DNA of 64,000 bases, taken from Desulfobacteraceae bacterium. Lineage in GTDB: Bacteria; Desulfobacterota; Desulfobacteria; Desulfobacterales; SKZT01. The position numbers and the translations under genes were made by a program. The stretch spans positions 62,001 through 126,000 of the forward strand of contig JAABTQ010000002.1 of assembly GCA_011389745.1 (NCBI GenBank), read 5' to 3'. The notes under the pieces were generated by a model. It ran no database searches, had not been told where the DNA came from, and worked only from the letters and a program-made list of their open reading frames with translations. This document shows positions 26,665-31,833 of the stretch, in pieces (position 1 is the first letter of the stretch; every line of letters begins with the position of its first letter).

Positions 26665-27132
26665 CTAAGTACTTTCTGTATTTTCGTCATTTTCCAATGC
26701 CTCAATATCCGCAAGATCCTGCTTTGAATTTCTGAACCGTTTCAACCAAATTAAATCTTCACGATTCGCAATACATACCACCCCGAATTCGGTCTCCTCG
26801 ATGAAAGCATTTTTGATTATTTCTCTATGCCTTTCTTCATTACCTTCAAGCAAGTCTATTGAAAGTGAATCTTCCCCTTCAATCTTTGTCAGTCTGTGAA
26901 GGGTAATATTTGTATTCTTAAAAGTCCAGGTGGCAGCTTCAAATATATAACCCGTTTTTTTTAAAATGGATTTGAGATGGTCAATGTCTTCAGAAAGAAT
27001 CAAAAAATCTATATCTTTTGTATACCGTGGCTGGGTATGAAATGATAATGCAATACCGCCGACAACAACATGTGAAATGTTTGCCTCGTTTAATTTTTTA
27101 ATTATGGAAAAGAATTCGTCATATATATTCAT
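26665..27132 (-). CDS. Nucleotidyltransferase-fold protein (AbiEii/DUF6036-like)
   Basis: A 155-residue protein with the minimal nucleotidyltransferase pattern: VVVGGIALSFHTQPRYTKDIDFLI, where G-G and D-I-D are the phosphate and metal sites, and a third acidic strand LSIDLLEG. This matches AbiEii-type toxins or MNT-like partners of toxin-antitoxin systems. No clear antitoxin partner is adjacent; a short overlapping frame (26517-26690) is basic and unassigned. It may be an orphan of a degraded module. Confidence 0.7.
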   Translation of the reverse strand: MNIYDEFFSIIKKLNEANISHVVVGGIALSFHTQPRYTKDIDFLILSEDIDHLKSILKKTGYIFEAATWTFKNTNITLHRLTKIEGEDSLSIDLLEGNEERHREIIKNAFIEETEFGVVCIANREDLIWLKRFRNSKQDLADIEALENDENTEST

Positions 27133-27195: not shown

Positions 27196-27450
27196 TTAAT
27201 TTATCTCTTTTTGAATTTCTTTCACCACCTGGTGAACATCAGGAAGGCATCACCTGCCTTTGGGATTTTTTTCTTTGCAATTGCAGCCACCGGATTTTTT
27301 TTCAGCTATGATCTTTTCGATAATTTTGGAATAACCATTATTCTTGACATCCGACTCAATGTCTTTTCTTTTATATTGAAAGCAATAGCATACCAAATCA
27401 TCGTTTTTAAAAGTACCTTCTTTTATGATTTTTGAACTGATAGTCTTCAT
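27196..27450 (-). CDS. Candidate selenoprotein: BFD/CopZ-like [2Fe-2S] protein with in-frame TGA
   Basis: An 84-residue protein if the TGA at 27250-27252 is read as selenocysteine (residue 67). Visible cysteines are DDLVCYCFQY and GGCNCKEKNPKGR, followed by TGA, then TGC (Cys) and LPDVHQVVKEIQ up to TAA. In the BFD-like domain of CopZ-type metallochaperones the last two ligands are the CC of NPxGRCC; here the first of that pair is exactly the TGA codon. A hairpin with SECIS-like geometry follows. Termination at TGA would remove two ligands. Seen: the motif and reading frame. Inferred: Sec insertion. The ribosome binding site is weak. Confidence 0.65.
27221..27252 (-). promoter_or_regulatory. 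Candidate bacterial SECIS hairpin
   Basis: On the minus strand the TGA (27252-27250) is followed after 13 bases by TTCACC (27236-27231), loop AGGT (27230-27227) and GGTGAA (27226-27221), a perfect 6-bp stem. The loop begins 19 bases after the TGA and has G in its second position, which fits the published bacterial SECIS consensus (small apical loop, G in the first two positions, 16-37 bases from the UGA). Confidence 0.55.
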
Positions 27451-27719: not shown

Positions 27720-27792
27720 ATTCGTCATTCCGGCGAAAGCCGGAATCCACGAAATGGCACCCCAACCTGGATACCGGCCTTCGCCGGTCAAA
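27720..27792. repeat. Family B dispersed repeat
   Basis: TCATTCCGGCGAAAGCCGG AATCC at the left end and ACCGGCCTTCGCCGG at the right end form an imperfect palindrome about 70 bp long. It sits directly against the BadF-type activator remnant, as if inserted into it. Confidence 0.65.
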
Positions 27793-27807
27793 AACCCTTG
27801 TATGTGT

Positions 27808-27909
27808 CAGCTTCTTGCTGAGAGACTGGGTCGAAACGTTATAACGCCGGAAGATCCTCAAATGACCGGGGCATTGGGCGCAGCACTTTTAGCCATGGAA
27901 AAACATTAA
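27808..27909 (+). pseudogene. C-terminal remnant of a BadF/HgdC-type ATPase activator
   Basis: An open stretch reads QLLAERLGRNVITPEDPQ, then MTGALGAALLAMEKH and a stop. This is the conserved end of 2-hydroxyacyl-CoA dehydratase or benzoyl-CoA reductase activator ATPases (PQxxGALGAAL). The remainder is missing, replaced upstream by a family B repeat. Confidence 0.65.
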
Positions 27910-28899: not shown

Positions 28900-29994
28900 G
28901 TGACTTCTAAACCTGAAGGGGCTGGAGCCCGAGCCTGCTGGTTTGTCGGGTCCTCATACGGTAAAACTAATGATCAAACACCCCGTTTTCTGCAGGAAGG
29001 CATTTGGGAGAATGGCTATCAAGACAAATACCTCGACGCGGTGAAGTCCATCCAGGTTGGGGACCGTATTGCGATCAAATCGTCCTATACGCGGAAACAC
29101 GATCTGCCCTTTGATAACCGTGGCCAAACCGTTTCAGTCATGGCGATCAAAGCCATTGGCACGGTAAATGAGAACCTCGGAGATGGCCGTACCTTAAAGG
29201 TTGACTGGAAACCCTTCGATCCGCCGCGTGAGTGGTACTTCTATACCAATCGAAGCACGATTTGGCGCGTCTTGCCCGGCGACTGGACTACAGACGCCCT
29301 AGTCGGATTTACGTTCGAGGGAAAGACGCAGGACATCAACCGATTCCGCAACGCTCCCTACTGGCGAGAGCGTTTCGGCGATAGCTCCGTCGACAAACGC
29401 CGTTTCCACTGGACCCGCTTTTATGAGGCGGTGGCTGACAAACTTCTCACCTTTAGAAATCGGCGTGAGGAGCTGATTTCCCGAATTCACGCTATCGGCA
29501 AGAAAGTCGACTGCATGTCGATTCTCAATGACCAATACCAAGAAAGCGTGCCGGGAGGCCCGCTGAAAGACATCTGCCCATTTACGGTCATGGGCATATT
29601 CAACCGGGGGATTACCGATGCCAATCGCAAAACCATAGCGAGCGAACTGGCCAGCCTGCTTGGTGTGTCAGAGCCTGTTCCCGACTCCTTTGAAGGAATT
29701 CCAGTTCTCAATAACCAGAGGACATGGTTTTTTGGCTACAGCTACAAACGACAACCAGATGACATTGACACCCTCTGGGAAGCCTTCGCCCAGGCGATTG
29801 CTTTCGCGGAATCAGATGATGCTGATTCACGGTCGGCCTTTAACAGATGGGTGTTTTATCGCCCGAGAAAAAATCGAAAAGATTCTCGAGCGTCTTCGGA
29901 CCAAGAAAAACCTGATCCTACAGGGGCCACCAGGAACTGGAAAGACCTGGCTGGCCAAAAGATTGGCATTTGCGTTAATAGGGCAACGCGATGA
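28900..29994 (+). CDS. McrB-type protein, N-terminal part (modified-base reader domain), 3' frame broken
   Basis: GTG start after GGAGAG. The first frame encodes an EVE/PUA-like specificity domain (CWFVGSSYGKTND, VGDRIAIKSSYTRK) followed by WRERFGDSSVDKRRFHWTRF and ICPFTVMGIFNRGITDANRK...GIPVLNNQRTWFFGY, known from the N-terminal halves of McrB-like restriction ATPases. Similarity ends near codon 308; the frame then runs out at 29994 while the AAA+ part continues in another frame from about 29840. The usual linker (WNLTMGLYWVRP type) is missing, so an internal deletion probably fused the halves out of frame. Confidence 0.6.
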   Translation: MTSKPEGAGARACWFVGSSYGKTNDQTPRFLQEGIWENGYQDKYLDAVKSIQVGDRIAIKSSYTRKHDLPFDNRGQTVSVMAIKAIGTVNENLGDGRTLKVDWKPFDPPREWYFYTNRSTIWRVLPGDWTTDALVGFTFEGKTQDINRFRNAPYWRERFGDSSVDKRRFHWTRFYEAVADKLLTFRNRREELISRIHAIGKKVDCMSILNDQYQESVPGGPLKDICPFTVMGIFNRGITDANRKTIASELASLLGVSEPVPDSFEGIPVLNNQRTWFFGYSYKRQPDDIDTLWEAFAQAIAFAESDDADSRSAFNRWVFYRPRKNRKDSRASSDQEKPDPTGATRNWKDLAGQKIGICVNRATR

Positions 29995-30703
29995 CAGCAA
30001 GGTCCGACCGGTTCAGTTTCACCCGAACCTTTCTTATGAGGACTTTATTCGTGGTTGGCGGCCGGTTGGCGACGGCAAGCTTACGCTGGTAGATGGACCT
30101 TTTTTGGAGATGATGAAGGCAGCTGAAAAAGATCCCAAGTCAAGGCACGTCGTTGTCATTGAAGAAATCAATCGCGGGAATCCAGCACAGATTTTCGGCG
30201 AGATGTTGACACTGCTCGAGGTGGATAAGCGAACGCCGAATGAAGCCTTGGAGCTTTCCTACAAACGTTCGGATGAAGAGCGGGTTTTTATTCCGGACAA
30301 TCTATACGTCATCGGCACGATGAATATTGCAGACCGCTCTCTTGCGCTGGTCGATCTTGCGTTGCGTCGCCGTTTTGCCTTCATTGATCTGGAGCCCACT
30401 CTTGGCAAACCTTGGCGCGACTGGGTTCAATCCCAGTGCGGCATTGATTCAGAAATCCTCGTTGAGATCGAGAAGCGTCTCAATGTTCTGAACAACGACA
30501 TCTCAGCTGATAGCGGTCTCGGCCCTCAGTTCCGAGTGGGGCACAGCTATGTCACGCCTCCGTTCGGTGTTCCGATTAGTGATGCTCGAGAATGGTTCCG
30601 CCAGGTCGTTGACACCGAGATCGTACCATTACTCGATGAATACTGGTTCGATGCGCTTGAAAAGTCTCAGAAGGCCAGGAATCTCCTGCTTGAAGGATTC
30701 TAA
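29660..30703 (+). pseudogene. mcrB: McrB-type AAA+ GTPase part, out of frame with its N-terminus
   Basis: The frame matching McrB begins about 29838 (CFIAREKIEKILERLRTKKN). It contains Walker A GPPGTGKTWLAK, Walker B VVVIEEINRGNPAQ, and the McrB signature GTMNIADRSLALVDLALRRR. The protein end is intact and lies 2 bases before mcrC. No good start codon or ribosome binding site is visible, so translation depends on a frameshift or reinitiation; I regard it as part of a broken mcrB. GTP-driven translocation for methylation-dependent restriction is the family role. Confidence 0.65.
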
Positions 30704-30705
30704 TT

Positions 30706-31833
30706 ATGGCCATTGCTGCAGCCAACTTGATGTCAGACGCCCATGAAGGGATTGGACGTATTGGCCGTATCCCGGTGCGCAACCTTTGGCTGCTAATGCT
30801 GTACGCATCGGATCTCTTCCGGGTTCTCGAAAATAAAAACGTAGCCGTAGAGGATAACCCCGATGACATTCCGAATCTGGTCGCAGAAATGCTCTGTCAT
30901 CAGGTCGAGCGCCGCATTCAACGCAACTTGAGTTATGGGTACCAATCCCGGGAAGCTGTTCTTGGTCGTGTGCGCGGGCGCATTGACTTGCTGAACACCG
31001 AAAGACACCGATTACTTGATCGAGGAAAGGTAGCTTGCCGCTTCAACGAATTGACTGTCGATACTGCCCGAAACCGTTATGTCCGAGCAGCGCTAGGGGA
31101 AATTTCCAAAATAGTCGACCGTGATGGACTGACTCACCGATGCAGATCGTTGGCGGCAAGTTTAAGGCGTATGGGCGTAACCGGGGAGCGGCCAAGGCGT
31201 GGCGAGGAGTCCATTAACCGCTTCGGCAGACACGATGCTCATGACCAGCCAATGGTTTCTGTGGCGCAGCTGGCCTTAAACCTTGCCTTGCCTACGGAAT
31301 CCGCAGGCACGAAAAACCTATCGTTACCGGACAGAGAAATTACCTGGATTAGGAAGCTTTACGAGAAAGGCCTCGCGGGTTTTTACGATGTCGTGCTTTC
31401 CGGGAAAGGATGGCGTGTTGACGCTGGCAAAACGATTGGCTGGCTGGTTGAAAACAAGAGTCCGGGCATCGATAAAATCCTCCCCTCCATGAGAACCGAC
31501 ATCATCCTTAACCATTCGAACGCGGGACGCCGCATTGTCATAGACACCAAGTTCAACTCCGTGGTCACGCGTGGCTGGTATCGGGAAGAAACACTGCGAA
31601 GTGGATATATTTATCAGATTTACGCTTACTTGAGATCCCAGGAAGGCAATGGCGACCCGCTCGCGGAGAGCGCCGCGGGACTGCTCCTTCACCCCTCAGT
31701 GGGCGATATGGTTAACGAGGCCGTTGTGATCCAGAACCATGAGATTCAATTTGCCACCGTTGATCTTGCAGCGACGGCAAAGGAAATCCGAGAGCAGCTT
31801 TTGCAGGTTCTGGAACTTCGAGGACGATTTTGA
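30706..31833 (+). CDS. mcrC: McrC-type nuclease subunit
   Basis: A 375-residue partner of McrB. An N-terminal part (IPVRNLWLLMLYASDLF, VLGRVRGRIDLL) contacts McrB and a C-terminal PD-(D/E)xK nuclease core shows SMRTDIIL (Asp) and RIVIDTKF (D-x-K). It would cut DNA when activated by the McrB ring on modified sites. The gene itself appears intact although mcrB is broken; it ends 104 bases before attC-like site 2. Confidence 0.82.
   Translation: MAIAAANLMSDAHEGIGRIGRIPVRNLWLLMLYASDLFRVLENKNVAVEDNPDDIPNLVAEMLCHQVERRIQRNLSYGYQSREAVLGRVRGRIDLLNTERHRLLDRGKVACRFNELTVDTARNRYVRAALGEISKIVDRDGLTHRCRSLAASLRRMGVTGERPRRGEESINRFGRHDAHDQPMVSVAQLALNLALPTESAGTKNLSLPDREITWIRKLYEKGLAGFYDVVLSGKGWRVDAGKTIGWLVENKSPGIDKILPSMRTDIILNHSNAGRRIVIDTKFNSVVTRGWYREETLRSGYIYQIYAYLRSQEGNGDPLAESAAGLLLHPSVGDMVNEAVVIQNHEIQFATVDLAATAKEIREQLLQVLELRGRF

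Follow-up and report, generated by a model that had tools for sequence, protein, structure and literature searches.

The question raised by a short reading frame in the window (the whole stretch of DNA that was analyzed, 64,000 nucleotides long) is whether a TGA codon near its end stops translation or is read as selenocysteine (Sec). The frame comprises 84 codons on the minus strand, with a single in-frame TGA at codon 67 that lies immediately 5′ of a TGC, and translates as ...CYCFQY...CNCKEKNPKGR-U-CLPDVHQVVKEIQKEIN*; an ORF finder stops it at 66 residues. An earlier note on this DNA had described a frame passing from the TGA through the TGC to a TAA, a description that holds once it is placed on the minus strand (27450-27196). 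The features on which the following discussion relies are collected in Table 1.

Table 1. Position and support of the features of the candidate selenoprotein gene (window coordinates).
Feature	Coordinates	Strand	Remarks
Candidate selenoprotein CDS, BFD-only [2Fe-2S]-type	27196..27450	-	ATG 27450-27448, TAA 27198-27196; orthologues with one in-frame TGA
In-frame TGA, codon 67, reading as selenocysteine strongly supported	27250..27252	-	TGA constant in 65 tabulated sequences; Cys in homologues from other phyla
C21-x-C23, expected ligands 1 and 2	27382..27390	-	Invariant in family alignment A1; aligned with 2HU9 C75/C77 and the NifU CxC
C56-x-C58, expected to include ligand 3	27277..27285	-	C58 present in all homologues read, C56 not
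C68, expected ligand 4, canonical BFD position	27247..27249	-	hhalign against NifU-type BFD profile
Predicted bSECIS hairpin TTCACC-AGGT-GGTGAA	27221..27236	-	Covariation; mostly lost in Cys homologues; codon-choice constraint

The reading of UGA codon 67 as Sec is strongly supported across the comparative tests. In a set of 96 related genomes, which includes that of the window, 37 contain a match to the protein and 33 have an in-frame TGA within that match; in all 32 TGA copies that were read out from these genomes, the TGA is directly 5′ of a TGC (32/32). A sample of 395 genomes from across the phylum yielded 65 with a match, 60 of them with a TGA and two of these belonging to a second BFD lineage, the window family being represented with a TGA in about 58 of the 395 genomes, from which part of the copies were read out. 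Throughout 65 tabulated sequences, the TGA and the TG that follows it are invariant, with neither TAA nor TAG ever in place of the TGA, and the family alignment reveals a conserved protein 3′ of the TGA (C-L-x-D-V-[RHK]-[QR]-V-V). The alternation of Cys and Sec that the earlier note had proposed looking for at the TGA column is found, as homologues from Bacteroidota, Ignavibacteriota, Fidelibacterota, Myxococcota, Pseudomonadota and one archaeon have Cys-Cys at this place; the same-phylum homologues G150 and G183 are also Cys-Cys. Of the 296 genomes around G480, which lies outside the phylum, five match, the central genome included, and none of these has a TGA. The family tree offers too few columns for counting Sec gains or losses. 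An ordinary stop, which would leave a BFD-like protein of 66 residues and turn the remainder into 3′ sequence, is consistent with the closing of the frame by the ORF finder and with a hairpin that is unexceptional when taken by itself; nevertheless, the constancy of the TGA without TAA or TAG variants, the conserved protein beyond it, the homologues with Cys at its column and the covariation of the hairpin (see below) all argue against this explanation, which is scarcely credible.

Further copies came out of the same comparisons. In L138 (4013-4198), a CDG replaces the CxC motif upstream of the TGA, and the gene has perhaps decayed. The second, more distant BFD lineage is represented by L123 (4000-4250) and L124 (3984-4169), in which an in-frame TGA precedes a TGC in the motif [NS]PRGR-UC; if this reading holds, a TGA at the same place in a separate lineage would imply that Sec was recruited repeatedly to this position.

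The earlier note had also pointed to a perfect hairpin of 6 bp with the loop AGGT, beginning 13 nt 3′ of the TGA, as a candidate bacterial SECIS element (bSECIS). This hairpin lies within the published bSECIS model, i.e., a stem-loop with a G as the first or second base of its loop, at 16-37 nt from the UGA and with a minimum free energy (MFE) of -7.5 kcal/mol or lower: the distance from the TGA to the loop is 19 nt, the second loop base is a G, and the MFE amounts to -8.9 kcal/mol over 51 nt and to -7.1 kcal/mol over the 31-nt core. Folded alone, it is unremarkable: when the 31-nt piece was shuffled 200 times, 24 of the products were as stable (z -1.4). Its significance therefore comes from conservation across homologues and not from the single-sequence fold. 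An alignment of 62 distinct homologous sequences shows a seven-pair helix with 91.7% of its cells paired, and compensatory changes occupy 14 cells in five of the seven pairs; for instance, the third pair changes from C-G to U-A in six sequences, the sixth from C-G to G-C in two, and the pair adjoining the loop from C-G to A-U in three. None of 500 shuffles attains any of the five measures of covariation, and controls in which the helix was slid along the alignment reach at most 61% paired. Between 5 and 7 of the seven pairs are formed in all 65 Sec copies, against 4 or fewer in nine, 5 in four and 6 in one of the 14 Cys sequences, so that the separation of the two forms is clear but, in this small set, incomplete. 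Codon choice within the stem follows the same constraint, since pairing requires particular codons: of the 58 Val codons at position 72, 57 are GTC or GTT, and of the 52 at position 76, 50 are GTG (P 1e-27). As judged from the aligned sequences, the conservation of the hairpin and of the TGA is far beyond chance, and the covariation evidence for the SECIS of this kind of selenoprotein is an addition of the present work.

Decoding of UGA as Sec also calls on a dedicated machinery, and the earlier note had considered that a genome devoid of selA, selB, selC and selD would speak against its proposal. All four are in the genome: a tRNA-Sec scores above the Rfam cut-off, SelB and SelA are present, and outside the window there are two selD genes (C30:8096-9022 and C45:101430-102350 of genome G000), each with an in-frame TGA of its own. 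SelB was detected in 22 of the 24 genomes checked; it was not found in G001 (95% complete) and G061 (80%), two draft genomes that carry the Sec gene. The proposal of a UGA-encoded Sec in a Bfd/CopZ-like family is thus borne out by the alternation of U and C, the conserved coding 3′ of the TGA, the covarying SECIS and the complete Sec machinery.

The affiliation of the protein is less immediate from domain models. The Pfam model Fer2_BFD (PF04324) gives 19.7 bits (E 0.0011), which misses its cut-off of 26, hence the name “BFD-like” used here. NF047645 (CopZ_Nterm_CC) aligns with the window protein over positions 83-137 of its 138 with 54.6 bits (cut-off 100, E 1e-14), i.e., under its cut-off and with its N-terminal domain unmatched, and NF045877 (Csac_0668) gives 23.5 bits (cut-off 190, E 4e-5), with Sec placed second in its two-residue pair, whereas the window protein has it first; the window protein is accordingly a member of neither. 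All 30 members of the family alignment A1 match both NF047645 and NF045877, and in NF047645 it is the C-terminal BFD part that they match (best E 6e-16). Among solved chains, the closest in sequence is 2HU9 (E 0.0029), which represents the N-terminal part of Archaeoglobus fulgidus CopZ. An AlphaFold model built from the single sequence was poor (pLDDT 49), and a model from an eight-sequence alignment reached a pLDDT of 84.7; when the model was compared with the folds of the PDB, only Bfd chains stood out (Z 6.1), the next, unrelated chain scoring 2.2. An hhalign comparison of the family profile with a mostly NifU-type BFD profile assembled from related genomes returned a probability of 96.5% (E 8e-10), and together with the model and its match to Bfd this points to a BFD fold with the corresponding ligand pattern. 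Most Sec copies start only 5 to 20 residues upstream of the CxC, so the Sec form consists of the BFD domain only, whereas the Cys homologues that were read out have an additional Cys-rich N-terminal region, taken by its appearance to be the zinc domain of CopZ. The product is therefore best described as a putative BFD-type [2Fe-2S] protein that stands by itself and whose relatives are the BFD domains found in CopZ and NifU, with cluster binding predicted from these relatives. Its identity as a Sec-decoding BFD-like protein, as distinct from its role, can be asserted with high confidence.

The position of the selenium relative to the predicted cluster deserves closer attention, as the earlier note had placed the TGA on the first of two Cys ligands. 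In the hhalign comparison, a nine-residue gap opens in the KEKNPKGRU stretch, the last canonical ligand falls on Cys68, and the hydrophobic pattern of the following helix is in register. Because Cys68 occupies the canonical ligand position in this alignment, Sec67 probably adjoins the fourth ligand on its N-terminal side and is not a ligand itself; the TGA does stand on a conserved Cys column, as had been claimed, and it is the ligand role that would pass to its neighbor. A selenium-ligated cluster, in which Sec67 would be the fourth [2Fe-2S] ligand and Cys68 would be spare, finds some encouragement in the conservation of both residues of the UC/CC pair and in a listed selenoprotein with the motif CU, in which Sec is on the second residue of the pair, so that Sec may be tolerated at the ligand; with the NifU-type BFD profile alignment assigning the ligand to Cys68 and keeping the following helix in register, it is an unlikely arrangement. 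For the third ligand, the profile alignment favors C56, and C58 is the one kept in all homologues read. A redox pair formed by C56 and Sec67, which was favored at first, was abandoned: C56 is missing in several Cys forms and in the Sec copy L133, where a Ser takes its place, and such a pair is therefore not obligatory.

The gene neighborhood was surveyed at 62 Sec loci, of which 61 belong to the window family and one, L123, to the second lineage. The commonest neighbors encode a permease related to the SO_0444/SaoE transporters, an ArsR-type regulator, a thioredoxin of the ArsE family (TIGR00412), ACR3, ArsM, ArsC and CcdA/DsbD-like proteins; the last were named by the appearance of their sequences, and the representatives of the permease and of ArsC score under the model cut-offs. 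At 17 of the 62 loci, L123 included, at least two of ArsR, permease, ArsE, ACR3, ArsM, ArsC and CcdA/DsbD are encoded within 5.5 kb. These 17 loci come from a dozen taxonomic families, and at several of them the arsenic-type neighbors are directly adjacent and on the same strand. In 14 of 62 genomes, the Sec gene has a gene for ArsE at a distance of 5 kb or less, where 0.30 such genomes would be expected; the P value of 4e-19 assumes independent genomes and is optimistic because the genomes are related. L123 adjoins genes for the permease, ArsE and ACR3. Neither the window copy nor its nearest relatives lie in ars clusters, and 45 of the 62 loci in total are outside them, so that arsenic may not be the general role of the family.

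In the window, the neighbors of the gene encode a nucleotidyltransferase (26665-27132) and a UPF0158 protein. An apparent gene remnant beside the selenoprotein gene, on the plus strand (27780-27909), matches FGGY carbohydrate kinases at their C-terminal end with 26.8 bits (the cut-off being 27), and McrBC-type restriction genes occupy 28900-31833 on the same strand, with an McrBC component at 30706-31833 and an AAA_5 ORF (29660-30703) that shares part of its length, in a different frame, with the ORF before it (28900-29994). Elsewhere, genes that by appearance resemble nitrogenase-type components adjoin the Sec gene on the opposite strand at L058 and L063, which are from two related genomes. 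The Cys-form loci L119 and L120 adjoin genes whose translations resemble mercuric reductase, MerT-like and MerR-like proteins.

From these elements a working mechanism can be proposed. SelB and tRNA-Sec would decode UGA codon 67 as Sec under the direction of the hairpin just 3′ of it, and the resulting selenol would immediately precede Cys68, the last of the expected cluster ligands. Most likely, this selenol would constitute, by itself or together with C56 or C58, a reactive site next to the cluster, which would either exchange electrons with the cluster or bind a soft metalloid, As(III) for example. In some of the relatives, the protein might take part in arsenic detoxification as the partner of the ArsE thioredoxin, the ArsC or the permease encoded next to it. 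Our best functional guess is that of a redox or metalloid-thiol partner that serves, in part, for arsenic detoxification. A role with arsenic or another metalloid is plausible in its own right, falling slightly short of an even chance. The more specific picture, in which BFD-only selenoproteins throughout the phylum act in metalloid detoxification, with the selenol by the [2Fe-2S] cluster as a reductant or As(III) relay to ArsE, ArsC or the permease and the selenium possibly touching the cluster, is offered tentatively, as one possibility among several.

Two other roles were weighed against that of a metalloid partner. The protein could be a general low-potential electron carrier of the Bfd kind that happens to bear a selenol, with ars neighborhoods incidental in some lineages; its fold matches that of Bfd and the 45 loci without an ars cluster nearby, the window's among them, would be natural under such a role, whereas the recurrence of the ars association in a dozen taxonomic families, often with an adjacent gene on the same strand, and a proximity to ArsE far above chance are harder to reconcile with it. 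This remains a serious contender, if somewhat less than an even prospect. A copper chaperone like CopZ is suggested by the closest solved relative, 2HU9, but the 84 residues amount to a BFD domain only, the recurrent neighbors are of the arsenic type and two Cys-form relatives lie beside mercury-like genes, which makes such a function very improbable. An arsenic link, if true, would provide a testable function for a family that reviews list without one, and would offer a natural setting for studies of a selenol that lies next to a [2Fe-2S] cluster.

The earlier note had been unsure whether this family was already listed as a selenoprotein. A CopZ-family (2Fe-2S)-binding selenoprotein form 1, of the CopZ-like Fer2_BFD family (cd10141, WP_245779778.1), is named in two reviews of 2022 and 2026 (PMC9312934; PMC13188914), the later of which gives its motif as GxUC (PMC13188914); form 2 (Csac_0668) is listed with the motif CU (PMC9312934; PMC13188914). 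In the main text of the GOS 2008 paper, which is cited for the family by PMC13188914, the family was not found by name under the terms looked for. The window protein has the GxUC motif in the form GRUC; in a few relatives, the G is replaced by other residues. Compared by listed motif and domain, form 1 and the window protein share the fold family and the Sec motif (G-R-U-C in the window); they very probably represent the same family, and the window gene would therefore belong to a kind of selenoprotein that is already listed. For this CopZ form 1-like family, no arsenic link was found in the open-license literature. What is added here to the reviews is the covariation of the SECIS, the likely corrected position of the selenium and the link to ars genes in some relatives, for a small selenoprotein whose gene is closed by an ORF finder after 66 residues and which scores under the cut-off of every NCBIfam model.

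Among the systems with which the window protein can be compared, form 2 (NF045877, Csac_0668) shares the BFD domain and has its Sec in the same two-residue pair, but its motif is CU, with Sec at the second residue, and its model spans 161 positions. NF047645 has Cys-Cys where the window protein has Sec-Cys, and the Cys homologues have the extra Cys-rich N-terminal region. A. fulgidus CopZ (2HU9) aligns with the window protein over 74-120 through the pattern CxC ... C ... NPxGRCC, although it possesses an additional N-terminal part, has no equivalent of C56 and has Cys in place of Sec. Bfd is devoid of both the NPKGRU insertion and Sec, and its ligands are arranged as C-x-C and C-x2-C. It is nonetheless the Bfd of Pseudomonas aeruginosa (4e6k, 6e6r) that provides the best structural match to the modeled selenoprotein, with a Z of 6.1 over 53 residues at 2.4 Å.
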